The notes beneath the pieces are model-generated. The model saw only the letters and a program-made list of their open reading frames with translations, was not told the DNA's origin and searched no databases. A stretch of DNA of 64,000 bases from the NCBI GenBank assembly GCA_033182465.1, contig CP137327.1, forward strand, positions 806,001 to 870,000, in the 5' to 3' direction. This DNA is from Sanghuangporus weigelae. Its lineage: Eukaryota > Basidiomycota > Agaricomycetes > Hymenochaetales > Hymenochaetaceae. Position numbers and translations under genes: made by a program. Of the stretch, positions 6,138-23,913 are shown piece after piece (within the stretch, counting starts at the first letter, position 1; the number at the start of each line of letters is the position of its first letter).

Positions 6138-6247
6138 TATAAAATGAAGAGCCCGTCACCTCCCTGTAGACCATCCAGCTTCTCTTATTCACCTTTCACC
6201 TTTCACCTTTCTCTCAAATTCGCTTTCTTTCGCGACCTGGTGTCGTT
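6138..6247 (+). promoter_or_regulatory. TATA box and shared leader motif, secreted-family member 1
   Basis: TATAAAA at 6138-6144 is followed by a pyrimidine-rich tract that contains a triplicated CACCTTT, then GACCTGGTGTCGTT at 6234-6247, about 70 bp before the ATG. The same pair recurs upstream of the four paralogues. A position downstream of the expected start of transcription suggests a 5'-UTR element; that is inference. Confidence 0.6.
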
Positions 6248-6315: not shown

Positions 6316-7509
6316 ATGTTTACAAAGTCGCTCATCTCTACCCTCATCCTCCTGGTTTTCTCGTCTCCGGCACTCGCCGCGCCCAGCTTCGGGAGCTGCT
6401 CGACGCCTCAGATAAAGTTCGCAGCCGGTCTCGATGGCAGGAAGGAAACGTCATTCCAAGCTACTGACCTGAGTATGTTTCTATTCTTGGCCAGAAGAAA
6501 TAATTCATTATAACATTTCCTTGTTCCATCAGAATCCTTCAACCACGGGTCGACGGACGACATCGATGCCATTGCGAACTTCATCTGTCAGCAGCTTCAG
6601 ACGAGCTGCAGAGCCAACAGCGATGCAGTTAACTCGTGCAAGTCTGCGGTCAGCGCGGCCGACAAGGCTGCAACCGGCACGGGAGCCCAAGCCGACGCAT
6701 TCAACGCAGCGTTTGGCGCCAAGACGAACTTTGCCGCTGTCGCTCAAGTCAACGCAAACGGCCAGACAATAAACTCCGGCTCTAAATCCGGCTCAGGGAC
6801 GCAGGACCCACAGTCCGATCTGAGTAGGTTTCTTGACTGAGACATATTGTGCTATCTGTTGACTCAAGTTTCAATCTTAGCTCTTAACCCGGCTGTAATT
6901 GCCACCGGGTTCGCTTTGGACGGGCAACAGGTCCCAACAGCGGGCCAAGTTCCGTCTTTGACATCGACGAACAACTTCATCAACTTCTGCTTGACTGTCA
7001 ACAAGCCCATTACGAACGGCCAGCAGATCAAGACTGGCTCATGTAACCCTGCGCCGATAGGTGTCATCGCTGCGACGACGAATATGCCATCGTCGAAGTT
7101 CCAGTTCCCGAAGAACGGTGATAGGATCAAAGCAAACCAAGCGTTCACGATTAAGATGGCGATTAAGCACATCCAGACCGGTAACTTCGTCAACGCGCAG
7201 AGCAACTACTATAGTGCTCCTCAGCAAGTGAACGGACAGGGCGACATCATCGGTCACTCGCACGTCGTTGTTGAGCAAATCAGCAGCGTGGACCAGACTA
7301 GCTTGACAGACCCGAACAAATTCGCGTTCTTCAAGGGCATTAACGGTGCAGCGGTCAACGGTGTCGTCACTGCCGATGTTACGGATGGTCTTCCGAAGGG
7401 TTCCTACCGTCTGGCTTCCATCAACTCAGCTGCAAACCACCAGCCTGTCGTTGTCGCGGTTGCCCAGCACGGTTCGCTCGACGACATGGTCTACTTCACC
7501 GTAATCTAA
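6316..7509 (+). CDS. Secreted protein, LNPAVIATGF family, member 1 (two-domain form)
   Basis: Three exons (6316-6472, 6533-6823, 6881-7509) give about 358 residues. A signal peptide is clear: MFTKS, a hydrophobic run, then SSPALA|AP. The next ~120 residues form a separate Cys-containing module seen in other basidiomycete secreted proteins (LDGRKETSFQ...FNHGSTDD...FICQQLQTSC). Exon 3 encodes the family domain: LNPAVIATGF, TNNFINFCLTVNKPITNGQQIK, GSCNPAPIGVIA, IIGHSHVVVE, NHQPVVVAVAQHGSLDDMVYFTV. Members of this family are often labelled 'ribosomal protein S17' in fungal databases; the signal peptide and sequence make that unlikely. The function is unknown, and an extracellular or wall location is expected. 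This is the only one of the five copies with the middle exon. The ATG at 6316 is chosen because it immediately precedes the signal peptide. Confidence 0.85.
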
Positions 7510-8378
7510 GTTCGTCGGTCCTCCCGATGAGACAAGCGGGTGGTTCTCTCTTGTGCCAATGTTTCCTTAAATTCGTTTACTTTACTTGGTGTTAGGTTCC
7601 TCTCTCCCTGTCGGTACATAACTGCCTCGATGGCAGACTGCACAATTACGATTTTATGTTTATAGAAAACTAATGTCTATCTCCGTTTCTGTTGTATGTG
7701 ATAATTCAGCTGTATTATTTGAAGGATGTGAGAAGGTCTCTACGCCGCCACTTCAGCGACCACGGCAAGTCGCTTTCCCCATAAGTATTCGAATTCCCAG
7801 TGTCCAAAGCAGAAGATACCATGACAAGACAAACTGGCAGAATATGGGAAACAATGCACGTTAGACGATGGCATGACCGAGATGACCGTTGTCGCCCGCC
7901 CGTATCTAACGGAACAGTTGACGACACAAAGACAGTAGCAGTTTGTTACCTTGCCACCAACACCTTAAAAGGATTCTTGCCGGTCAGCTCATGTCTTCGG
8001 TGATTGCCGATTCTCCGACATCAATCTTACCCATCTCTCTTGCCCATGCTAGTGTGGCCGGCGTTCTCTTTCTACTATCTCAGCATGAAACATTCCTTGA
8101 CTTTGTCATGCACTTTGCAATGGTGTAGATGCATTATACCATGGCCGCAGTACTTCCACGACTCGATCTAGATTATTTAATCGCAGATCAGCCTCAGCCG
8201 GAAAGCCTTTGCAAAAGATTTGGTCCGGAAAAAGCTCTTACAATGAGCGCATCTTGCCGTTGCTTGACCTTTCAGCGCTGAGGAAAATGACATCACCATT
8301 CCTTCGGCAAACTCGAGCTCTGGTTGGTTATGTGGCCGTAGTCATTTCCCATAGACAGGAAAGGATGTGGAGCACGGT
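7510..8378. other. Intergenic stretch, no gene seen
   Basis: 3' flank of member 1 and distal promoter of member 2. The few short open frames have no recognisable motif. Confidence 0.5.
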
Positions 8379-8470
8379 CATAAAAGGCCTGTGTCTCCAC
8401 CACCTTCTCCTCATCCCGCTGCATTCCCAACAGACTCTCCGTTTTATCTTCGGCCTGGCGCTGGATTCGT
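8379..8470 (+). promoter_or_regulatory. TATA-like box and leader motif, secreted-family member 2
   Basis: CATAAAA at 8379-8385 and CGGCCTGGCGCTGGATTCGT at 8451-8470, about 80 bp before the ATG. This is the most diverged copy of the shared leader motif, and its spacing from the TATA box is the shortest (~72 bp). Confidence 0.45.
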
Positions 8471-8551
8471 CACTTTATTAACTTATTACTCATTCCGCTC
8501 CTTTGTTTTTCATACTTCACTGTAGTATTCGGCCACAACATATTTTCCGAC

Positions 8552-9335
8552 ATGCTCTCAAAGTTCGCATTTGTTGGGCTCACTCTGCTCACCGTGACTG
8601 CGTCCTCCGCTCTGGGCGCCTCTTCCACAGATGACCAACAGTCGGCTACCAGTATGTAAAATATTTTCATATATAATTTTTGCTATTCACCATATATATC
8701 GCATAGCTCTTAACCCGGCTGTTATTGCCACTGGATTTGCTCAGGATGGCCAGCAGGACCCTACTGAAGGGCAGGTTCCGTCTTTGACGTCGACGAACAA
8801 TTTTATCAACTTCTGCTTGACCGTCAACAAGCCCATTACGAACGGGCAGCAGATTCAGGCTGGATCATGCAACCCAGCACCCATGGGTGTCATTGCCGCG
8901 AGGACGAACATGCCATCGGCGAAGTTCGTCTTCCCCAAGAACAACGACACGATCCCCGCGAACCAGGCATTCACGATCCAGATGGCAATCAATCACCTCC
9001 AGACGGGCAACTTCGTCAACGCGGCGACTAATTACTTCAGTGCACCGCAGCAAGTAAATTCGGGAGGAGACATCATCGGGCACTCTCACGTTGTAGTCGA
9101 CTTCCTGGACAGCCTCGATCAGACGAAACCAACTAACCCCGGGACCTTCGCATTTTTCAAAGGTCTGAATGCGCCAGCAGACAACGGCATACTCACTGCA
9201 GACGTTGATAAGGGCCTTCCAGCGGGCGTCTATCGCCTGGCATCAATCAATTCTGCTGCGAATCACCAGCCTGTTCTCGTCGCTGTCGCTCAGCATGGTT
9301 CACTCGATGACATGGTCTACTTCACAGTCGAGTAG
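8552..9335 (+). CDS. Secreted protein, LNPAVIATGF family, member 2 (minimal form)
   Basis: Two exons (8552-8651, 8707-9335) give about 242 residues. Exon 1 encodes little more than a signal peptide (MLSKFAFVGLTLLTVTASSA|LGA) and the short linker SSTDDQQSAT. Exon 2 is the complete family domain, from LNPAVIATGFAQDGQQ to DDMVYFTVE, with the conserved blocks NNFINFCLTV, GSCNPAPMGVIA, IIGHSHVVVD and NHQPVLVAVAQHG. The intron is phase 1 and splits the Thr codon before LNPAV, as in all paralogues. This is the smallest member, which shows that the S/T-rich heads of the other copies are dispensable additions. It is predicted to be secreted; function unknown. Confidence 0.87.
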
Positions 9336-10503
9336 TTAGGTGAAGGAAACACTTCCTCTTTGCGTGCTACATCGCAGTCAGTCGACCTCCTTCCGTAATT
9401 TAGAATTTATTTGCATGATTGTGTCTGTCGTTATCGTCGGTTCAGTTACGAGACTTCTCCGAGGGATACTAGCACTACAGTTTTCTCATTAACTGGTATC
9501 CCTTATACCTCTTGTATATGTTTAGTTCTTTGGGGCATTTGCTATAATACTAGTTGACTTCTCGTTCGAAGGATACTCTGTGAGACTCTCAGTTTGCCCG
9601 GTTGTAAAGGCCAAAAGATAACGATGTAATAATTCATTGAGATCCGATACCTATCTCATCATTCGAACTCCAGAGCCTCCTTCGAGCCGCACATGTCAAA
9701 AGTTGATATTCTATAAGCATTTTCCGTGTTATTGTCCTTTTGAGGCTGCCCCTATGTCAGGACATACATCATGTAATCGAGTGCTACTGTAAAGTGATGT
9801 GCCTTGAGCAAAGAACATTAAAGTAGAGAGTTAAATAGAAATGTCAATGGATACTTTAAGTCGACTATTCAGGAGTTGAATAGCGTTGCCGTATGTTGGA
9901 ATCTATAAGCTTTATTTCAAAGATCCCGAGAATCATCAGTTCCAAGTCGACGGATTCCGAGTCTGGCATGTGCACCTCGCTCTTGAAAAATGGACGTCTT
10001 ATTGGGTGCAACCTATATGATGGCTGAAAGGCCTCTTGACGAATGCGAAATAGTTATAGAGCTGATTGATACCATGATATCTTAAGGATGTTGCCTTGGA
10101 TATCAACGGAAAACATACGTCGGTGCGCATTTCTTCTCATCTGCGCGGCTGATGCCGTGATTGCCGATCACTATAATGCTTGACGAAGTTATTTGGCCTC
10201 GAACACTTCATCGCCTTCACTTCCTACCTTCACGACCACCAATTAGTGCACTGGTTCGTTGGCTCGACCCTTGTATGCGAGTATTATTTATGGCACGACA
10301 AACTTGAGTTCTACTGCTAAAGTCTCCTCGGGCTTGCGTGGTTCGAGAGAAAATCCAAGTATAACCACAAAACAAATGCATCTTGAACGCCGTCAATTGT
10401 CTCTGTGATATCGCTTCGCCCGCCGACGCATCGATGTGTCCGTTTCGCATCTATTCCTGACGTTGCGCGTTGATTGAAGATGCTCATATTCACAATGCGT
10501 CGG
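9336..10503. other. Intergenic stretch, no gene seen
   Basis: About 1.2 kb, AT-rich and full of stops on both strands. No repeat or RNA gene recognised. Confidence 0.5.
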
Positions 10504-10609
10504 TATAAAACGTCTGCTTCTAGTAGACTTACCGCCAACAATTTATGCCTAGTGTCTGCACTTTTTCTTCTTTGTTCTTGTCCTTCCTGCATTACGGCCC
10601 GGTGTCGTT
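10504..10609 (+). promoter_or_regulatory. TATA box and shared leader motif, secreted-family member 3
   Basis: TATAAAA at 10504-10510 and CGGCCCGGTGTCGTT at 10595-10609, with a T/C-rich tract between. The motif ends 79 bp before the ATG. Confidence 0.6.
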
Positions 10610-10688
10610 TTCTTCCATATTAGCTTGACGTTGACGTTGACCATCCATCCACTTACATTTCCGTCCAAATCCAGTACTTTGTTACATC

Positions 10689-11587
10689 ATGATCCTTCCA
10701 TCTACGTTGAATACTGGACTAGTCCTGCTTACGCTTTCCGCGACTAGTGCGTTCGCTGCACCAGCAACTTCAAGCGTTGCTGCTTCTGCCCCCATTGCAA
10801 GCGCTACCGCTGTGAGCTCCTCCGTGGTTTCCGCCAACGCAAGCACTGTGACTGCTACAACAGCCACAGGATCATCCACTGCCGGTGATGAACAATCTGC
10901 TACCAGTAGGCATATGTGGTGTTCAGTTGGTTTGCTAAGGCTGACGCATTATGATCAGCTCTGGATCCAGCTGTTATTGCCACTGGTTTTGCGCAGGACG
11001 GCCAGCAGAATGCGACCGAAGGACAAGTTCCATCCTTAACGTCAACAAACAACTTCATCAACTTCTGCTTGACCGTCAACAAGCCCATCACGAACGGCCA
11101 GCAGATTCGGGCAGGATCATGCAACCCAGCACCGATGGGAGTCATTGCCGCAAGGACCAATATGCCGTCGTCGAAGTTTGTCTTCCCGAAGAATGGGGAC
11201 ACGATCAAGGCAAATTCGCCATTCACCGTCCAGATGGCTGTCAACAACCTCGAGACAGGCAACTTTGCGAATGAGGAAACCAACTACCTCGCAGCTCCGC
11301 AGCAGGTAAACGCACAAGGAAACATTATCGGACACTCGAGGTTTGTGATCGAGCAGTTGGACAGTCTTGACCAAACGACGCCGACAGATCCGAACCGGTT
11401 TACATTCAACAAAGGTATCAGCGCGCCGGCAGTCAACGGCGTACTCTCCGCAAATATTACCACAGGTATTCCTGCTGGATTCTACCGTCTGACTTCATTC
11501 AACTCAGCGGCGAACCAACAGCCAGCTCTTGTCGCAGTCGCTCAGCACGGCTCTCTCGATGACACGGTTTATTTCACTGTCGAATAA
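10689..11587 (+). CDS. Secreted protein, LNPAVIATGF family, member 3
   Basis: Two exons (10689-10905, 10959-11587) give about 281 residues. The signal peptide (MILPSTLNTGLVLLTLSATSAFA|AP) is followed by a ~45-residue Ser/Thr/Ala linker that ends GDEQSAT, a likely O-glycosylated stalk. Exon 2 encodes the family domain with LDPAVIATGFAQDG in place of LNPAV, and with TNNFINFCLTV, GSCNPAPMGVIAARTN and DDTVYFTVE. Several positions differ from the other members (IIGHSRFVIE instead of IIGHSHVV), so this copy is the most diverged in the 'GHSHV' block. The 3' neighbour is an F-box gene on the opposite strand. Predicted secreted; function unknown. Confidence 0.86.
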
Positions 11588-12126
11588 ATTGCAAGGCTGT
11601 CAGTACGTCAATATTTGTACCCACCGTCTTCAAGCGCATTTGCGATGCGCATAGCGAGTATTTTATTCTTTCGGCATCTTTGAATTGGTTCCATGATTGT
11701 TGTTATTAGGGCTATAATAATATGTTAAAGCAGTAATGCGACACGCGAAGTTATCATGTTTCCCGCAATAAGCTGACGTGTTGATAGACGGACAATCCCC
11801 GACTCTCCTCCATGGATCACAAGCACTGCCTACAAGTTATATCGTCACATAGGCTAGCCACGGTTATCACTAAAAAAAGATTCAAAGCGTAATGATATAC
11901 TTCTTGAAAAAACAAGACCGATACGAAGAAGTTTCAATGGAATCTAGGGACCGCAATACTGAAAGAACAATTCTCGTTTCGTAGAAGGAAAAGGAAAGTC
12001 ATTCATCTGTGTCAACTCCGTGGCTAAGTTTCCTGTCAGCGATCAAGTCGAAAACACCCCCAAAATATGACGACGTACTAAGTTGTCATATGAATTGCTC
12101 TCTGTACTTGACGTTTTTATTCGACC
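11588..12126. other. Convergent intergenic stretch
   Basis: Space between the stops of the secreted gene (plus) and the F-box gene (minus). Presumably holds both 3' UTRs; nothing else seen. Confidence 0.5.
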
Positions 12127-14748
12127 TTAAGTACTCCATATAGAATTCCTGCGAAGTTCATGTGAAGGGTAAATGAAGTCTAGATCGTGCGTAGCAATGG
12201 TGCCGTCCGATTTGAGTTTATGGGCTTCATACGGTGGGTGGTCTCGGTTATCTCGTATCTCCTCGGAGACGTGTTTAACCTGCGCAAGGCCACCAGATAG
12301 TACGGTGTCAGCCTCAACAGTGCCACAAGAACAGATATAAAAATTAAGCATACCAGTTCCTCCCACGTCAGACGTACTCGCAGTATAGGATCGCACTGTA
12401 GACACACAAATGATGCTCCCAGATACTGCATATATCTCATGCTCATGTCATCCGGAAAGCCCATTGAAGAAAGTAATGCGTCTGCTGTCTGAACGACCAG
12501 TCGCTCGACCTGATATTCAGCTGACTTCCACGACGGAAGCCATCGCGAGCACATGTACTCCTCGCGACAAGACAGTATCTCGGAGAAGGTTATCATGACC
12601 CGAGGATTAAGATTAGTACCGAAGAACGCATTACCACCCCACACCACGTCCGTATCTACGGTCGAATCGATTTCAAGAGATTCCCATATAGCCGGATCTC
12701 TGTACGCGAACTCGTCTGGCTGCTCCTGAGCCGAGAGCAATAATTTCGCGCAACCAAACTCAACTTTCCGAGCGTGGATAGCCAGTAACTCTGGAAGCTC
12801 GTTTTCGATCTTTTGCCAGCGTTCCTCGGTTATTTTCACCCTACAGTCATCCTCCTCAATCATATCCAACACCATCGGTATTTCATATAGATCACGAATG
12901 CAAAGTGGCATATCATACCGGTTCCACGAAAAGTGCTGGCGCGTGTAATTTCCGTATAGCCGCAACAGTTCGTTTTCGCGCTCGAAGCGATCCTTGGCAG
13001 TGGCTCTCTTTCGGCCAATTTCCCGTCGACTTCGAAGCACTTGTTCAAGTTCTGGACGTACGCTATTCCAAGCTGCCAAATAACGCCTGTAAGACGCCGT
13101 CATACTTGAAATACGATTTAACGTACTTCTCTCTGTCATTTCTTTCGGCTGGTTAACAATATCCCGCCAGGACCAATAGGCACTCTCGTCGTCAATCCAC
13201 CAGTCCCCTTCTTCTGCGGCTTTGATTTCCTCATACAAATAACCGAGAGAATGAAGTCGGTCTGCTATCCTTTATATCTCGTTAGGATCCCCGAAATGCA
13301 TGAAGAATGAATGCTTACTGACTGTTTATATCGGTTCTTCCTTGTTTCTGCGTCTGCCATTTTTTGCGCCAAGATTTTCCAAACAGTAATACGCTTCTCA
13401 TGCTAATAATAACTGTCCGTGTGCATAGAATCCATGCTAAGAACTATATTACATACCTGCATAATCTCTTCGACGAAATGATGTTGCTTCTCCATGATAC
13501 TTTTCCGCTCTACTGAACCAGGCTCTGTTTTCAAGTAGGCCGAAACAACTCGGACAAAGTCGACTTCAAGAAAGCGCCGGGAAGTTATCTTTGAGAGTAC
13601 TTCATCGGATATCGCATCCCATTCTGTCACTTCATAGACTGTCAACTATGATTTCGTCCAGGAGAGTGATTTGACAACACGTACTTTTGCTCCATGGTAG
13701 TAATGTATATATTTTCTTCAAGTTACTTATTTCGATGCCAAAATATGAGCGAGACATTTTTCTACCAGAACGGACACTGAAGAGCCATATCAGGAGAGTA
13801 GTGGTCCGAGAGTCGATGGAATCACACTGACTTCAATTTGATACAGCGCTGACACAGGCGAATAAGCAATGAATCGATGACATTCTCCGCTTTGCGGTAG
13901 CCACATGCCTTGAAGAGGATGGCGTTATTGACGATGCACACGAACATGTCTTGATTCTTACCTGGCAAGTCTTTTCGAAGTACAAACTCGCATATTGAGG
14001 TTCGTTGAGGTTAGAAGGACATGGAGGCATTTGCATTCCATTCTCGCACGTAATCCAGACGTGTCTCGAGGATCTTGACATGAAAACGCCGTATAAGGAA
14101 CGACTCGTCCGCGACAAATAGAGCAGGTCGAGGGGCATGAGTTTCGATGCGATCTGTTGTTTTTCCGAGAATGATCAAGCAGATCGAAATCGACTAATGC
14201 GTCAAATACCTCGTATAATACATCTATAGGTAGGGACATCATTAGCGAAAGCTTGCCCACATCGTCCTTATTTATACGAGTCCTTCGATTCTTGACAGGA
14301 GCAGTACAGTCCGAGAACGTCGGCCAGTCCTTTGTCCTTGGACCAGATAGGAGGAAGCGTACTCGGCCTTTCTTCTCCGTTAAGACTGCAAGTACCTGGT
14401 CAGTCTGCTGTTTGATTTCTTTCAGGATACCAGAATTTCTTACTTTTTATAACCTCGTCGATCGAGGGAGAGCCTGCATCCGTCCCATTGTCAACATCCT
14501 TCACGTCCGGAACTGTAGTATTGGAATCCTCATGACCACCAGACGTGCCCTTTGAGTTGTATCTGGCACTTTTCTTGGTCCGTTTCTTCGGTCTCACAAC
14601 CTCCGCGTCGTTTTCGTCTCCACTTTCCGCTAGATTCCTACGCTTAGGCTCCGGGAGACTCCCTCTACCGAAGGCAGCATCAGCAAAACGTCCTGTAGGT
14701 GAAGAAATAGGCAGATGTATCGTACGTAGAGGACCTAGTCACAACCAT
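12127..14748 (-). CDS. F-box protein, array copy 1 (apparently intact)
   Basis: Probable substrate receptor for an SCF ubiquitin ligase. Reading on the minus strand, a basic disordered head (RRNLAESGDEND, PKKRTKKSARY) leads to LTEKKGRVRFLLSGP and then the F-box (KLSLMMSLPIDVLYE|IASKLMPLDLLYLSRTSRSLYGVFM). Next comes the usual agaricomycete region: VWITCENGMQMPPCP, NEPQYASLYFEKTCQ|ACGYRK, RLCQRCIKLK, FLEVDFVRVVSAYLK, IADRLHSLGY. The long C-terminal part has MGFPDDMSMRYMQYLGASFVCLQCDP and WEELV|KHVSEEIRD. About nine introns restore one frame; the last is 12280-12353. The protein ends at SIWST, about 50 residues earlier than copies 2 and 3, whose tails run to a Cys-rich stretch and HGIY. The 5' end is uncertain: the ATG at 14748 matches copy 2, but the first junction is not resolved. 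Confidence 0.75.
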
Positions 14749-15319
14749 CGAGAGAATATGCTGTCGAAAATGGTTATGGAACTGAACTGTGAACAGAAAT
14801 CAAGGTTGCGTTGCGCAACACGGGCACGTGTTCAAGTCACGTTCGCATTTCAAAACAGAGAATCCTAAGTAAACGAATAGTTCTAGTTCTCGGTGCAGTA
14901 GTTGATTTATGTGATGATATCTTAGCTTTGCCTGCTATCGGAAAAGATACCTATGGTGCGCTCGCATTAATGGTCAAATTCGAGACCGTACTTCCAAATG
15001 CTGTTCATAAGTTACGAATAAGTTGGGACACCCTCAACGCAGAGAACCCTTGAAATTGATCGATTATTGGACTAGATTTGTGATGTTGATTTGTGGATAG
15101 AAAGGCTTTCAACACTTATCCCGCATTAATGGTGGGGTTGACTGTATGCAAGCAAGGAAAAGATTACTTCAGGACCAGTAATATGTACACCGAGAAGACA
15201 TATGAACAGTCCGGAAGCTCATAGAGTTTTGCTGGCATACGCGAGGCCATCTGGGATGCTTTGGACTTACAATACTTTGAAAATAGCATCCAAGGACTGA
15301 GCGATAGAAATGGAGATTC
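14749..15319. other. Intergenic stretch, no gene seen
   Basis: Upstream flank of F-box copy 1. A short open frame at 14811-15053 has no start context, splice partner or recognisable motif. Confidence 0.5.
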
Positions 15320-15850
15320 TCATTTAGCAGAAAGGTTGGGAAACATGTCATCATCGTAGATCCCATGACTTGTTTTCTAAGTGTCAGTAAGCAACTCTAG
15401 GCCATTTCGTAGGATATAATGACTCACTGGGTTCGCATGTGCGAACAAAGTCCCTTTTCATACTTAATATGTTTGTGTATGCGTTGCTTCAGGCATACTC
15501 TGCAGTAATCATCATACAAGCGGTCGAATATCGAGACAGATGGCTTAGTGAGGCCAGGTCCATGTGCAGCAATAGGGCCATCTGAGGCGCGCTTATGCGT
15601 TTCAAAAAGGGGCATGTCGCATGATTGAGGATATTGATGATAGTCTCGAGGCAACGTGACCAACCTAGGACCATCAGTCAGAAAAACCCTGTCGCAGATG
15701 AATTTCGAGAATTCTGACTTACCAGTTCCTGCCAAGTTCGGTGAACTTGTAGTATTGGATCCCACTGTAGACATACAAAAGTCGATCCCAAGGACTCCAT
15801 GCATGCGATAGTCGCATCATCCCTAAAGCCCAGAGAAGATAGCTTTCAAA
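15320..15850 (-). pseudogene. F-box array copy 3, 5'-truncated remnant
   Basis: Only the last exons of an F-box paralogue remain. The remnant starts near SSLGFRDDATIACMESLG and continues with STFVCLQWDPIL and WQEL at an intron donor. The next exon reads DYHQYPQSCDMPLFETHK, then ASDGPIAAHGP and YCRVCLKQR to CSHMRTQ. A last short exon encodes SHGIYDDDMFPNLSAK and ends at 15320-15322. Everything upstream, including the F-box, is missing. A Cys of the CLQCDP block is Trp here. It aligns in order with copy 2, so it is the 3' end of a duplicated gene and not an independent gene. Confidence 0.75.
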
Positions 15851-16114
15851 CTACGTACCGCATTGAACTTCAAGTGTAAGATCGGAGTTCCTCAATGAGA
15901 AAAACATTGAAGCTTTTCGTGTTGGTCATCTGCCTCTAGAACAATTCTGGTGGTTTCCGCAGTACTAGTGCATAGAGAAAGAACTATATGGCAAGAAATA
16001 CAAGAGAAGACATTCGTGGCGGTTCGGGTGCTCACGAAATATCTGAGTCACCCTACAGTTCCCTTGCTTTATTATTCAATCCAGAGACCACAAAATCGAA
16101 ATGACAATTCTCGT

Positions 16115-18902
16115 TTAGTAGAATGGATCGGAAACTTGCTGGTAATCGTAGATCCCATGGCTTATATTCTAGTCGTTAGTAAGCAAGTCAAGCCCATTTT
16201 CAGAATACAAACACGTACTGGGTTCTCATGTGAGAATAAAGCCCTATTTTATTCTCGAGATGTTTGTATATATCCTGCTTCGAACATAATTCGCAGGACT
16301 CCTTATGTAGGGTACCTAATAGTGTGATAGATGGCTTAACGAGGTCGGGATCATGCGCAGCTATAGGGTGATCTGAAACGAGCTTGTGAGTTTCAAGTAG
16401 AGGAATATCGCATGACTGAGGATATCGTCGGTAATCTCGTATTTCACAAGCGACATGCCTAACCTAAGGTTATCAGGTTGAATAATTTCATCGTAGTCAT
16501 TTCACGCGTTCAGACTTACCAATTCGTCCCAAGTTAGAGGATTTCGTAACATTGGATCGCACTGTAGACACACAAAAGTCGATCCCAAGGATTCCATATG
16601 CGACATTGTAGTATCATTCGGAAAACCCAATGAAGACCGCAACGCATCGGCCGTATGGAAGTCTAACCGATTTCCACGGAGGATACAACCACGTTCTGAG
16701 CATGTTAGTTCGGCGCCGAGACAGAATCTGGGCAAAAGTCTCCATGTCGTACGGAGCTGCAGGATGACTGAAAAAAGCATTGCACCTCCAGACTGTACCG
16801 ATGTCGACGGTCGAATCGATTTCAGAGGTTTTCCATTCTTCCTCATCTATACGCGCAATCCCGTCTGAATGCTCCTGCGCCGAGCGCAGCAGATTCGCAC
16901 AGTCGTATTTTATCTTCCGAGAGTGCAGGAACGCTATCATCGGAAGCTCGTTCTCGATTTTCTGCCAGTGTTCCTTAGTTATTTCCACAGTACAATCGTC
17001 TCTTTCGATCATGTCTGACACCAGCGGTACTGCATACAGATCGACAAGGCAAAGAGGAGCTTGGTAGACCGAATACGACATTTGCTGTTCTACATAGTCT
17101 TTGTAGAAAGCGAGTAGTTCGGATTCGCGTTTGCAACGATCTTGTTCAATGATTTGTTCGCGGTCATACTCCCGTTTGCTTTGGAGTAGAGCTTCGAGCT
17201 TTGGGCGAATGTTATTCCAAACTGCGGGTAAAGGAAGGAAAGATTAGAAAACGTTGAAACATAAAGGACGGCTTTAGTGACTTACTTCTGTCCGTTAGTT
17301 CTCTCGGCTGGCAAACAAGCTTCAGCCATGACTCTCGGGAAACGTGATCACCGTTCCAAGATCTCATTGATCCAATCTCCTCATATGGGTACCCGAGAGA
17401 ATAGAGTCGGTCCGCAATCCTGTACATTTCGTTAGAACTCTGTGAGACGCTAGGGAGTGAACGACCAACTGTTCCCGGCGTCTAGCCTTTATTTCTTCGT
17501 CTGCGAGTTTGTGCGCCCACGTGTGAGCAGCTCGCCAAGCGACTATGTGATGCACATGCTAGTTGTACAATATGCTGATGAGCACATTTAAACCAATCTT
17601 AGAGGCTAAGATATTAACCTTTGCCATTTCCTCGACAAATCGACGTTGCTTCTCCAAAAATAAAATACGCTCTTCCGAGTCAGCATCCATCTTCAGATAG
17701 GTCGAAGCAGCTCGGACAAAATCGACTTCGAGGAAGTGTGGCTGCGTCTTTCCTCGATCTATAATTTGAAGTGTGTCCGTCACGCTCACTAATTTGAAAG
17801 CTTAACCGCGATAAAAAGAGTAAGAATGGCGCGAAACCATACTTTCTCTGAATGGTAGTAGCGAGTATAATACATTAAGGCCAGTGAGTTGAGGTCCAAA
17901 ATATATGCGGACCATTTCTTTGCCTGAACGGACGCTGTAAATATATGAGAATACAGTTGATGAGATTCATAGAGTCATACGGACTTCCACTTGATGCACC
18001 GTTTGCACAATCGAACGAACAATGTATCCATAACGCTCTCCACCCTGCGATGGCCGCATGCCTTTAAGCAATGTGTTATTCGACATTTACATGAACGTGA
18101 CTGAATTCTTGCCTGGCAAGTCTTTTCGAAGCGAAGACTGGCGTACTGAGGCTCGTTGAGGTTAGGAGGGCAGGGCGGCATCTGAATAGCATTCTGGCAA
18201 GCAATCCAAGTTGGCCTCGATGATTTCGACATGAGAACGTTGTAAAATGAACGATTCGACCGTGACAAATAAAGCAGGTCGAGAGGCATAAGATAAGTTG
18301 CAATCTATTGTTTTTAGAGAATGATTAAATATAGCAGACTGATTAATGTTCCAAATACCTCGTGTATCACATCTATGGGCAGAGACATCATGAGCGAGAG
18401 CTTTCCTATCTCGCCCTTGTTCATGCGGCCTTTTCTGTTTACGACGGGACTAGTTGAGTCTGAGAACGTCGACCAACTCTTTGTTCTTGGACCAGACAGA
18501 AGGAAGCGCACCCGGCCCTTCTTCTCGGTCAAGGCTACGAATTATCGATCAGTCAACACGTGCTTCCTTTCAACTACCAGAATCCCGCACTTTTTATGAT
18601 CTCGTCCGGCAAGGGAGGGATCGCGTCCACCGTATTGTCAACATCCTCCTCATTCAGAATTGCGGTGTTGTGTCGCTCATGCCCGCCAGACTTTCCCTTT
18701 GAACCGCTCTTAATGACACTTTTCTTGGTCCGTTTCTTTGGTCTCTCCTCCTGATCTTCATCTTCGTCGTCGCATTCTTCACTTTCTGCTAGATTACTTT
18801 GTTTGGGCGTAGGAAGGTTTCCCCTAGAGTTGGCGGCGTTAGCAGAAAGCCCTTCGGAAAAGTGACAGAGGTACCGCACGTCGAAGATCTAGTGGCAACC
18901 AT
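16115..18902 (-). pseudogene. F-box array copy 2, frameshifted
   Basis: Full-length paralogue of copy 1 with the same exon order: acidic/basic head (ECDDEDEDQEERPKKRTKK), F-box (KLSLMMSLPIDVIHE|IATYLMPLDLLYLSR), FEKTCQ|ACGHRR, VRSGKEMVRIYFG, FLEVDFVRAASTYLK, REQ|IADRLYSLGYPYEE, and the tail HVACEIRDYRRYPQSC to HMRTQ and SHGIYDYQQ. The large C-terminal exon breaks at about 16,660: after YPPWKS the frame changes, and compared with copy 1 some 20 bp are missing before TADAL. The frame then resumes with LGFPNDTTMSHMESLGSTF. I therefore call it a pseudogene, although a shortened F-box protein could still be made. One intron (donor near 18,112) starts with GC. The start is uncertain, as in copy 1. 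Confidence 0.7.
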
Positions 18903-19929
18903 CTCGGTTTTTACTTCAATTCAAATGTCGAGATTCTCCCGCAACAACGGTCGTCGAAGTGAACGATAGAGATCAATGTGGCTTGGCGCTTAATCGGCGA
19001 AGTTACGCGTGTTTATGACTATTTGTTACTACCAAATCGAGTCATTGGAGGCACGTGCTCAAGTCACGTTAGTCGCGCTTGACCCAACAACTATGCTTCT
19101 TGCCTTCTCGTTAGAAACTGACCTTCGTGGTGGGCGGTGCGAGGGAGGATCCTTATTCTTTTGGTGCAGAAGCCAATCTAGGATGCATCTCACGTACGTG
19201 CACGCGCCGTAGGTTGCTCTGACGGAGATAAATGGAGGCGTGTGCCAACTCTCCTGAGGTCTCGCTCCTCAGAGCACCAGAATCATTGAAATTTGACGCG
19301 TAATCAAGACGTTCAGCTCGCATGATTTGAAGCGAGTCCAGGCGATGCAATCGATATCACGTTGCCTCAGATACGGATGACATCAATTCACATTCGCATA
19401 GTATATGGACTCTGCGTCGCTGACTGGCTGGATCGTTCCTGCGGCCTGTGTATTCTGGGGATTTCAACAGGTCTGGCCACAATAGCCGCTCGTGTTGGCG
19501 GTGATGATTGTCTGGCGGAGGGTCCAACGAACGGTGCTTTCTCACACATTCTGAATCTTTTTTGCCTCGCGCTCGCCACTTGCGCTAATATCGCTCTAGC
19601 CTTCTCAATCTCGACTCTGGATGGCACACCTCGACTGTTCGTTCCTAAAATGACACACTGTCCGCACTATGGCGACGGATGTTATAAATAACTGGCGACT
19701 GAAATCTGTCTAAAAATAAATGACACCCATGCAGATCAGTGTGTGTTGCTCTTTCGCACGCATGTGGGCCTGAAAAAGATGGGTTCCTGCGATCAGCAAC
19801 CACTCGTAGCGGCTGCTCTCTCTGTTGGTCTCTGATGCGTCTGTTCGCCGTGTCAAATTACTGCGATCGGAACACCTGCTCTCGAGACCGGATCTAACGA
19901 GATGCCGTCGTTCATCTTTTTCAAGAAGT
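18903..19929. other. Intergenic stretch, no gene seen
   Basis: About 1 kb between the divergently placed F-box copy and secreted member 4. Open frames of 60-110 codons occur on both strands (for example 19362-19691), but none has recognisable domains. Confidence 0.5.
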
Positions 19930-20040
19930 TATAAAAGCTCTATTCTCCTTGCCCATCTCATCCCACTTCGTCTTTTCCTCTTTTCCGTTCGACTGCTTCT
20001 CTATCCTCTTCCTTACCCTCCGCTCGCGGCCTGGTGCTCG
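19930..20040 (+). promoter_or_regulatory. TATA box and shared leader motif, secreted-family member 4
   Basis: TATAAAA at 19930-19936, a CT-rich tract, and CGGCCTGGTGCTCG at 20027-20040, about 90 bp before the ATG. Confidence 0.6.
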
Positions 20041-20129
20041 CTTTTTGCTTTCCTTTTATTTGACCGTTTACGCTCGTTACAAACTTAACTCCAAGATCTC
20101 TGAAGAGAGGAAGGAACTAGTTTCCAAAC

Positions 20130-21356
20130 ATGTTCTCGAAACAGCTTTTCTCCACCCTCACTTTGCTTGTGTTCGTGGCATCTTCTGTCCTTGCCGCTCC
20201 TCCTCTCTCATGCCCTGCAGCGTCGACCGTAACAGTCGTCGCTTCAAGCGCGGCTGCCTCAAACATTGCTGTTAGCAGCTCCGCTGTAATCTCTTCTGCC
20301 GCGGCCAGTGCTACCTCTACTTCTTCCAGCAAGGGCGGCAAAGGAAATAAAGAAGGCAAGGATGGAAAGGACAAAGACGGCAAAGGAAGAGGTGGCAAAA
20401 ACAAAGGCGGCGATAGCAGTGCTTCTTCCAGCGCGGCTGTATCTTCGACCGATTCTATTTTTGTTTCGGCTTCAGCGACTGATTCTATCGCCGCTTCGGC
20501 CACGGGGGTCTCTTCCTCTGCTGCAAGTGCAAGTGCCTCTCTAGTTGTCGGTGGTGGTGACAAGGGCGTTGGCGGCTCTAGTCTGGCAAGCTCCGTTATC
20601 GCAAGTGCGACAGCATCTGCATCGTCGGGAGCTGCTTCGGGCTCTGCTACTGATGATCAGCAGGCTGCCACGAGTACGTTGAACTAAATTTTCATGAGAC
20701 AATTCAACTGACTTCTGGTCTTTTCAGCTCTCAACCCAGCTGTCATCGCTACTGGATTCGCGTCGGATGGACAACAAGTCCCTACGGAGGGCCAGGTCCC
20801 CTCTCTGACATCGACGAACAACTTCATCAACTTCTGCTTGACCGTCAACAAGCCCATCACGAACGGCCAGCAGATCAAGACTGGTTCATGTAACCCCGCA
20901 CCAATGGGTGTCATTGCTGCTACGACGAACATGCCATCGTCGAAGTTCCAGTTCCCGAAGAACAACGACACTATTCCCGCGAACCAGGCATTCACAATCA
21001 AGATGGCGATCAACAACATCGAGACGGGCAATTTCGTCAATGCGAACAGCAACTACTACAGTGCACCACAGCAGGTGAACGCGCAGGGCAACATCATCGG
21101 ACACTCGCACGTTGTCATCGAGCTCCTCGACAGCCTGAGCCAGACGACCGTAACGGACCCGAGCAAGTTCGCGTTCTTCAAGGGTATCAACGGAGCTGCC
21201 GTTAACGGTGTCGTCACCGCGGACGTCGCAGCTGGTCTTCCTGCCGGCGCGTACCGTATGGCTTCGATCAACGCTGCTGCGAACCACCAGCCTGTGCTTG
21301 TTGCTGTTGCTCAGCATGGTTCGCTCGACGACATGGTCTATTTCACCGTCCAGTAA
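20130..21356 (+). CDS. Secreted protein, LNPAVIATGF family, member 4 (Lys/Gly-rich stalk)
   Basis: Two exons (20130-20673, 20728-21356) give about 390 residues. The signal peptide (MFSKQLFSTLTLLVFVASSVLA|AP) leads to a ~155-residue stalk. The stalk has a Ser/Ala-rich part, then a charged block of K, G, D and E (GGKGNKEGKDGKDKDGKG, residues ~68-94), then another Ser/Ala-rich part ending DDQQAAT. Exon 2 is the standard family domain, LNPAVIATGFASDGQQ through DDMVYFTVQ, with GSCNPAPMGVIA and IIGHSHVVIE intact. The domain is close to members 1 and 5. A long open frame on the other strand (20117-20563) is the mirror of the biased stalk and is not a gene. Predicted secreted or wall-associated; function unknown. 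Confidence 0.86.
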
Positions 21357-22347
21357 ATGCAGATCTGTCTTGCGGCGAGCTTTGAAAGTGTGCCGTGCGT
21401 CGAGTATTTTGGTTCCTTTGACCGTCTCTCTTCGTCGTTCTTGTATCTGTTTTTCCCGCATGACTGGTTTGCATTGATTTTTTGATGTTCGTTCTCGGTC
21501 CTTTCAGTACTGGGTTACTGTTATTTTGTTGTTGTTCGTCACGAATCCAATATCTCCTGCATTGTCCAATAGCAACATACCAGAAATCTCAATTTTAACA
21601 ATGTGCAATAGCCAATGAGGCATTTACCGAACAACGTTATGCAGCTCCGTTTTCGACTTGTGTCCTCTTGGCAACGAACCCGATGAGTACTGCCGATCAC
21701 GCTGATCATTCTTTTCTCCCATCAATTTAGATCGGAAGAACCTTTGACCTGTCCTTGCCGACAATCTCCAGGCACATTATTTCTCCTTATTCTTGGTTAC
21801 ATGGATTTTTACTTTATCATTGGACCTGACTTGAACCTGTTGGGCGCCTTCTCGCAATTCATTTCATTCCCCAATCGGGGACAAGGTGCCATAAAACAGA
21901 ATCAACGTTTTATTCGATCCTGGATGGGTCATTAAAAATGGAAGAGGCGATATCTGTGGTTTTGTCGCCCTTGTCAACGGCGGCGACCGAACCTCGGCAT
22001 GTTGTTGAAGCCGTTTCCGGATTGAAACTAGGCTTATCGTCTCACGGATCAATCAAGAGGCTTGTTGGAAACCGGAGACTCATGCTGGATAGCTTCCTCA
22101 GACAAATGCCGACTACGGGTCACACTAGGTCGCACTCGAGTCGTCGTGCTCGGAGCGGAAAATGGTTGCTTCTTCGTTTACGCCGCGTATGCCAATTGGT
22201 CGTCCTTGTCATTTCGTACGGTGAAATTAGTCAGGAAAGGAAAGAATAAGGAACACGCGGCTTGTTGCTTGCCGATTTTATCGATTCGGAGTACACATCC
22301 AGACCTGGCTGGCTACGGCAAGAATTGCGCATGAGATGCTCAGTACT
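21357..22347. other. Intergenic stretch, no gene seen
   Basis: About 1 kb between members 4 and 5. Short open frames only, with no motif or repeat. Confidence 0.5.
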
Positions 22348-22461
22348 TATAAAGTACTTATACCGGCCTGGGACTCCGCCATCACAAGATCCCCTTCATC
22401 TCTTTCTTTCCCTCCCTCCATCTTCCTCTGTCGCCTCTGTGCTTCACGGCCTGGTGTCGTT
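22348..22461 (+). promoter_or_regulatory. TATA box and shared leader motif, secreted-family member 5
   Basis: TATAAA at 22348-22353, a strong CT-rich tract, and CGGCCTGGTGTCGTT at 22447-22461. The leader to the ATG is longer here (~175 bp) than in the other copies, but the TATA-to-motif spacing (~99 bp) is kept. Confidence 0.6.
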
Positions 22462-22635
22462 CCCTCCCTCCGAGCTTGCTCGATATTCATTCTTTTCCCT
22501 GCACATTCTTTTGCATCGTCCGACGCACGCCAAGCCGAACGAGCTTTGACCAGGAACACATTTCGCTTGCATTTCGCACATTTGAGAAGGATTTGAATTT
22601 TTATTTCGGGAAAAGACAGGAACATTTTAGAAAAG

Positions 22636-23913
22636 ATGTTCTCCAAGACGCTTTTTGTCGCTCTTAGCTTGTTCTCTATCGCCGCCCCGCCTGTTCTTGG
22701 CGTTCCATGCACTTCGGTCGTAACCGTAACCGCTGGCGCCAGCTCGACTGACGTCGCCGCTACTAGCGCTGCTGCTTCAACCTCGGTGTCCGTCCCTGCC
22801 GCCATCTCGACATCGCGCGGATCAAAAGGCTCATCTGGTTCTAACAATAACAATAACAATAACAATAACAATGGTTCCGATAGCTCGTTGACGACCAGCG
22901 CTCGCAATAATGCCGCGACGACGACGAGTTCAGCTGCTTCCTCCAGCTCGACGTCAAGCGGTGGTCGCGGCGGCAATGATAATGGCAATGGCAATGGCAA
23001 TGGAAGGGGCAACGGAAACGGAAACGGCAATGACAATGGAAATGGCAATGATGATACCGATACCACTACAACTGCGTCGAACGGGAATAATGCCGCTGAG
23101 ACTACGACCAGCGCGGCGGACGCTACTTCTACAACTGCTACAGCTACCTCCGGTACCGGTAATGGCAACGACAACGGAAACGGAAACAGCTCTGATTCTA
23201 CTGATAGCGAACAGAGCGCTACCAGTATGTTATTCTCGATTAAAAACCACCTATTTTACTGATACAATCGTCGTACCTTTACAGCCCTTAACTCGGCTGT
23301 CATTGCCACTGGCTTCGCTTCGGACGGCCAAGAAGTCCCTACGGAAGGCCAAGTTGCCTCGTTGACCTCTACCAATAACTTCATCAACTTCTGCTTGACT
23401 GTGAACAAACCCATTACGAACGGCCAGCAGATCAAGACCGGCTCATGTAACCCCGCGCCGATAGGTGTCATCGCTGCTACGACGAACATGCCGTCGTCGA
23501 AGTTCCAATTCCCGAAGAACGGCGATACGGTCCAGGCCAACCAGGCGTTTACGATCCAAATGGCGATCAACAACATCGAGACGGGCAATTTCGTCAACGC
23601 TCAGAGTAACTACTACAGCGCACCTCAACAAGTGAATGCGCAGGGCAACATCATCGGACACTCGCACGTCGTCATCGAGCAGCTTGACAGCTTGGACCAG
23701 ACTACTGTCACAGACCCGAGCAAGTTTGCGTTCTTCAAGGGCATCAACGGTGCTGCCGTTAACGGCGTCGTTACTGCGGACGTCGCAGACGGACTCCCAG
23801 CAGGCGTATATCGTATGGCGTCCATCAACTCTGCGGCAAACCACCAGCCTGTGCTCGTCGCTGTCGCTCAGCACGGCTCGCTCGACGATATGGTCTACTT
23901 CACTGTGGAGTAA
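22636..23913 (+). CDS. Secreted protein, LNPAVIATGF family, member 5 (Asn/Gly repeat stalk)
   Basis: Two exons (22636-23224, 23285-23913) give about 405 residues. The signal peptide (MFSKTLFVALSLFSIAAPPVLG|VP) is followed by the longest stalk of the family. The stalk combines Ser/Thr-rich parts, a run of about ten Asn coded by alternating AAC and AAT, and an NGNGNG-type region (residues ~115-140, echoed near 175) with occasional Arg and Asp. It ends DSEQSAT. Exon 2 is the family domain (LNSAVIATGFASDGQE to DDMVYFTVE). The Asn tract and the GGNGNN units are built on short DNA repeats, so length variation between strains is likely. The long minus-strand frame over exon 1 is a mirror of the repeat composition. 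Function unknown. Confidence 0.86.

Follow-up and report, generated by a model that had tools for sequence, protein, structure and literature searches.

A family of predicted secreted paralogs in Sanghuangporus weigelae

The window analyzed here, 64,000 nucleotides (nt) of the Sanghuangporus weigelae genome (contig C10:806001-870000; the whole genome of 33,870,148 bases in 13 contigs was searched), carries a cluster of five genes (m1-m5) for predicted secreted proteins that share a C-terminal domain of 208 residues. In each gene the last exon is 629 nt long, is preceded by an AG acceptor and begins by completing a Thr codon that is split after its first base (splice sites of these genes and of two further members, m6 and m7, are predicted from sequence). 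As the preliminary description of this locus had stated, no codon is gained or lost among the five last exons: they align without gaps in 10 of 10 pairs, with 71-84% nucleotide and 73-93% amino acid identity. The split Thr is typically followed by LNPAV, but by LDPAV in m3 and LNSAV in m5. All seven translations have a hydrophobic N-terminus, suggestive of a signal peptide. The heads, i.e., the parts of the proteins that precede the domain, differ only in the middle of exon 1, which is occupied by linker sequence of low complexity or, in the case of m1, by a Cys module; the Ser and Thr content of the linkers is 20-45%. Table 1 lists the features of the cluster. The observation of a constant last exon on differing heads is thus partly confirmed.

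Table 1. Genes, exons and upstream motifs of the cluster (window coordinates)
Feature	Position	Strand	Remarks
m1 upstream motif	6233..6247	+	1 mismatch to CGGCCTGGTGTCGTT
m1 gene	6316-7509	+	three exons
m1 exon 1	6316..6472	+	signal peptide, first part of Cys-rich module; open frame, GT donor at 6473
m1 exon 2	6533..6823	+	291 nt; remaining Cys-rich module, linker; phase-1 introns on both sides
m1 last exon	6881..7509	+	629 nt; conserved domain
m2 gene	8552-9335	+	two exons
m2 exon 1	8552..8651	+	signal peptide and ~11 residues
m2 last exon	8707..9335	+	629 nt
m3 upstream motif	10595..10609	+	1 mismatch to CGGCCTGGTGTCGTT
m3 gene	10689-11587	+	two exons
m3 exon 1	10689..10905	+	signal peptide, S/T/A-rich linker
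m3 last exon	10959..11587	+	629 nt; H127R and H186Q, in contrast to the other six
m4 gene	20130-21356	+	two exons
m4 exon 1	20130..20673	+	signal peptide, S/T/A-rich linker with K/G/D-rich stretch
m4 last exon	20728..21356	+	629 nt
m5 upstream motif	22447..22461	+	0 mismatches to CGGCCTGGTGTCGTT
m5 gene	22636-23913	+	two exons
m5 exon 1	22636..23224	+	signal peptide, S/T linker containing hexamer repeats rich in N/G
m5 last exon	23285..23913	+	629 nt

A protein search of the genome yields 8 stretches at E ≤1 that correspond to 7 genes, so that the family has at least seven members, a count to be taken as a lower bound. The two members outside the window are both located on contig C1 (4,491,666 bases) and differ in structure from the cluster. 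In m6 (L023), the domain is encoded without an intron at the corresponding T|LDP joint and is flanked by N/G-rich arms on both sides; the domain exon is 870 nt long in the preferred gene model, or 852 nt with an alternative donor, and is followed by another exon. The m7 gene (L024) consists of five exons, with a Cys-containing head and a domain spread over three exons, interrupted by introns after SCN and after MVY. When the m7 introns are removed, the domain is gap-free over 207-208 positions in all seven members. Given these gene structures, the 629-nt exon characterizes the cluster, whereas the constant domain length characterizes the family. The expectation that the last exon would keep its length in relatives fails to that extent, in paralogs from a single genome.

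In the nucleotide tree of the domain, the pairs (m1,m5) and (m2,m3) have support of 0.914 and 0.932, respectively, and the separation of m1, m4 and m5 from the rest has support of 0.946. The placement of m6 and m7 is unsettled in this tree (0.266), and support in most of the protein tree is weak, so that gain of the intron in the cluster and its loss in m6 and m7 are both compatible with the trees.

The minus strand between m3 and m4 contains two copies of a longer gene (window 12127-14738 and 15424-18888) that share stretches of 71-77% identity and contain open frames, plus a third copy of a 138-nt piece. This pair may be of the F-box type, a kind of gene expanded in Agaricomycetes.

The conserved domain

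Searches do not connect the domain to any described family. Full-length m4 and m2 match no Pfam family at E 1, m4 matches none up to E 10, and m4 matches no NCBIfam family up to E 1; neither the domain nor its profile matches a PDB sequence at E 10. Scans of viral contigs (234 pattern stretches) and of bacterial and archaeal contigs (588 pattern stretches) gave no confirmed relatives, with the proviso that they relied on short exact peptides, which distant relatives could escape. A search of plasmids gave no match. Literature searches yielded nothing on the family, and six short domain peptides gave no paper; Snowball (PMC10949477) is a seven-helix membrane protein and is not the same as this family.

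AlphaFold2 models of the five window domains are poor, with a predicted local distance difference test score of 37.6 and 43.5 in two runs. A Foldseek search of PDB with the better model detects no match at E ≤0.001, and its top rows (TapA and immunoglobulin-like chains) were treated as meaningless. The proposal of a rigid folded domain displayed on variable stalks is therefore retained as far as the constant length, the strong conservation and the variable N-terminal part are concerned, but the models lend nothing to its rigidity.

The domain is clearly under purifying selection. The nonsynonymous distance (dN) is 0.039-0.184 among m1-m6. The synonymous distance (dS) is finite in 14 of 21 pairs (0.71-2.43), and in these the ratio of dN to dS is 0.042-0.168, values that are only rough at such dS; the other seven pairs, including all six with m7, are saturated. 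Recent gene conversion was considered as a cause of the constant length and was rejected because of these last-exon dS values.

The conserved positions include His, Asp and Asn motifs, namely HSHVV, NHQPV and QHGSLDD. Every member of the family retains H125 and H196, and the replacements H127R and H186Q occur in m3 only. In m3 (window 10961-11584), 17 of the 118 columns on which the other six members agree are changed, and 16 of these lie after residue 80; in m7, the changes affect 25 of 126 such columns, 9 of them after residue 80 (m3 versus m7, Fisher p 2.7e-4, with the boundary at residue 80 set after the changes had been seen, which counts against the concentration in m3). Because its reading frame is intact, m3 appears to represent an altered site rather than decay, and it is a natural variant that lost two of four otherwise conserved His. 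The best candidates for a binding or metal site, altered in m3, are the His motifs containing H125, H127, H186 and H196.

The same His, Asp and Asn motifs would also fit a secreted enzyme, as opposed to a binding or structural domain. We consider this improbable, given that the members tested match no Pfam or NCBIfam family and that m3 lost two of the four His while keeping its frame.

Relationships of the first exons

The preliminary description held the first exons to be unrelated and suggested the intron before LNPAV as the point at which they were swapped. Comparison of the heads speaks against both statements. The signal peptides of m1-m5 score 25-65 with one another (10 pairs), versus 11-32 in 25 pairings with five other signal peptides from this genome that were picked from sequences already retrieved. 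Of the 252 possible groups of five, m1-m5 scores highest; one outside pair (m2 with a gene on contig C7, 32) scores above the two lowest inside pairs. In gapped alignments, the score of each of the 10 m1-m5 pairs is matched by at most 24 of 500 shuffles; pairs with m7 are not separated. At the other end, exon 1 finishes with [DG][DS][QE]Q[SA]AT in four of the five genes (m2-m5), with m1 ending in DPQSDL instead. The last 31 nt of the m1 head match m4 better than 99.5% of the other in-frame head windows; pre-junction pairs with m2 lack this window control, the m2 head being too short. In addition, the heads of m4 and m5 align over residues 20-60 (a score reached by 14 of 500 shuffles).

Similarity also extends upstream of the coding region. 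The 15-mer CGGCCTGGTGTCGTT precedes m1, m3 and m5 in the window, where all three sites lie before family genes, and, with 2 mismatches, m7. In these four genes its distance to the ATG is 69-189 nt, and a TATA-like site lies ~90-100 nt upstream of it. Across the genome, with one free base and at most 1 mismatch, there are 15 sites versus 10 for a reversed control, and 4 of the 15 belong to m1, m3, m5 and m7. Exact copies outside the family are found at C2:2830453 and C3:1792899.

If exons had been swapped, the relationships of the two exons would be expected to disagree. Signal-peptide similarity tracks domain similarity (rho 0.60, reached by 4 of 120 permutations), in a small test of only five genes and with one disagreement in detail: signal peptides pair m1 with m4, and the domain tree pairs m1 with m5. 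Whole-gene duplication predicts similarity to either side of the intron and at the two ends of exon 1, and this is what is found, with the weakest similarity at the pre-junction end of m1.

Exon swapping, in which the phase-1 intron at T|LNPAV joined unrelated exons for a signal peptide plus stalk to a single conserved last exon, can draw on the identical intron phase in 5 of 5 genes, on m1 exon 2 with its flanking phase-1 introns and its module, which recurs on C7 and has an intron at the matching internal position there, and on the recurrence of modules in differing combinations in the genome. Against it stand the common signal peptides and pre-junction residues, the similarity that reaches across the intron to exon 1, to the signal peptide and (in three of the five genes) to the upstream region, and the correlation between signal-peptide and domain similarity. 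Furthermore, m6 and m7 have different heads that are joined to the domain without an intron, so that the joint does not always coincide with an intron and the T|LNPAV intron is no general swap point; the m1 module, for its part, begins inside the signal-peptide exon and not at an intron. The common signal peptides and exon-1 ends, the upstream motif and the m6 and m7 structures led us to reject swapping as the general mechanism, and we regard this explanation of the cluster as very improbable.

Several observations weigh against common descent of whole genes. Only 5 of the 10 signal-peptide pairs stand out from codon shuffles in an in-register DNA test (≤42 of 2000), and the pre-junction match of m1 is weak against m3 and m5, where 11% and 19% of windows, respectively, do as well. 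The upstream motif has 5 mismatches at the matching place of m2, m4 and m6, which is no better than chance, since 24% of 400-nt pieces drawn at random from the window hold a match of this quality; the 3 sites in the window (at ≤3 mismatches) compare with 1.18 expected, and 12 of 100 shuffles reach 3. Finally, no tandem array was detected in the K/G/D stretch of m4, which bears on the growth of linkers by repeats discussed next. The combined evidence nevertheless indicates that m1-m5 are very probably tandem whole-gene duplicates whose heads diverged in place.

Variable heads and reuse of modules

Hexamer arrays in the m5 linker (22842-22872 and 22972-23050) and a 30-nt repeat array in the m6 tail point to repeat growth of these linkers. 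The Cys module of m1 shares 53% and 57% identity with two units that lie in tandem in one gene on C7. That gene (L025, minus strand) encodes a secreted multi-module protein with two tandem m1-type Cys modules and S/T linkers. A phase-1 intron lies at the same internal place in the m1 module and in the C7 units; the latter have a second intron, which m1 lacks. The m1 module has its 5' edge within the signal-peptide exon, so that at this end it did not come in as a discrete exon.

The m1 architecture, Cys module plus domain, could alternatively be ancestral, with m2-m5 as reduced forms that lost the module. The m1 signal peptide, which is common to the cluster and closest to that of m4 (score 65), and the single Cys that m4 and m5 each retain near the linker start would agree with such a history, but m6 and m7 lack the m1 module, and m1 is not basal in the domain tree, where it pairs with m5 (support 0.914). 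We consider this history unlikely, albeit worth some weight.

The head of m7 weakly resembles the chitin-binding family CBM19 (PF03427; E 0.0016, 18.8 bits, profile positions 14-57 of 61). The match is below the gathering cut-off of 20.1 bits, and the three other copies of the m7 module (on C4, C11 and C1) show no CBM19 match, which speaks against this assignment. On C1 and C11, the same-strand neighbor of the m7-type module is another Cys module, unnamed, of which the C7 gene shows faint traces (E 0.0092, and two short pieces at 2e-4 and 0.002). The two loci, L047 (C1:1597586-1598617, minus strand) and L048 (C11:1684969-1685998, plus strand), have the same order of the unnamed Cys module and the CBM19-like module. 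Given this adjacency, each pair may belong to one protein. It thus appears that this genome joins at least four secreted modules in different arrangements, but not by way of the T|LNPAV intron.

Proposed history and function

The observations are best accommodated by the following account, which as a whole we hold to be reasonably probable. The ancestor would have been one gene for a secreted protein composed of a signal peptide, a variable linker or module and the 208-residue C-terminal domain. After tandem duplication, purifying selection would have held the domain with no codon gained or lost, and the middle of exon 1 would have changed in place in both length and content, with repeat growth in m5. 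The Cys module of m1 may have been gained, or may be ancestral and lost in the others, and the T|LNPAV intron would merely have been inherited inside the cluster. Such a history is fairly ordinary gene-family evolution around a domain of no assigned function.

Three features, namely the predicted signal peptides, the linkers rich in S/T and the likeness of the m7 head to CBM19, suggest that the proteins could act in the hyphal wall or extracellular matrix, with slightly less than even chances in our estimate. The head might then decide how and where the protein is held, through the CBM19-like module in m7, O-glycosylatable linkers, or charged or N/G-rich stretches, and the domain might bind one common ligand in the wall or matrix. 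Taken further, this would make the domain an undescribed extracellular ligand-binding domain, for a wall polymer or a metal, built around H125, H127, H186 and H196 and placed behind interchangeable wall-targeting heads in a secreted set that recombines at least four modules, with m3 as a loss-of-site paralog; this extended proposal is speculative and more likely wrong than right.

The length of the domain is kept to the residue in seven paralogs, yet it is named in none of the libraries searched. Concrete handles on its function come from the m3 variant and from the m7 head with its likeness to CBM19, and, if the ligand-binding proposal holds, m3 makes the site testable. More generally, a gap-free last exon can suggest exon swapping where whole-gene duplication and a changing linker suffice.

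Comparison with known systems

The preliminary description alluded to misleading database names for this family; one such name, ribosomal protein S17, offers a likeness in name only, since m4 matches no ribosomal protein profile among Pfam families up to E 10 and the family is predicted to be secreted. Passages in two papers use "ribosomal protein S17" for 40S proteins. As regards CBM19, a similar head module is present in m7 only and not in m1-m5. Fungal wall and adhesin-type proteins with S/T-rich, repeat-variable linkers, e.g., yeast flocculins, offer another parallel. The family differs from them in that its linker is N-terminal of the domain, no glycosylphosphatidylinositol (GPI) anchor signal is seen by eye, and the domain matches none of the families searched; it resembles them in its predicted secretion and in coupling a conserved part to a low-complexity linker that varies by repeats.

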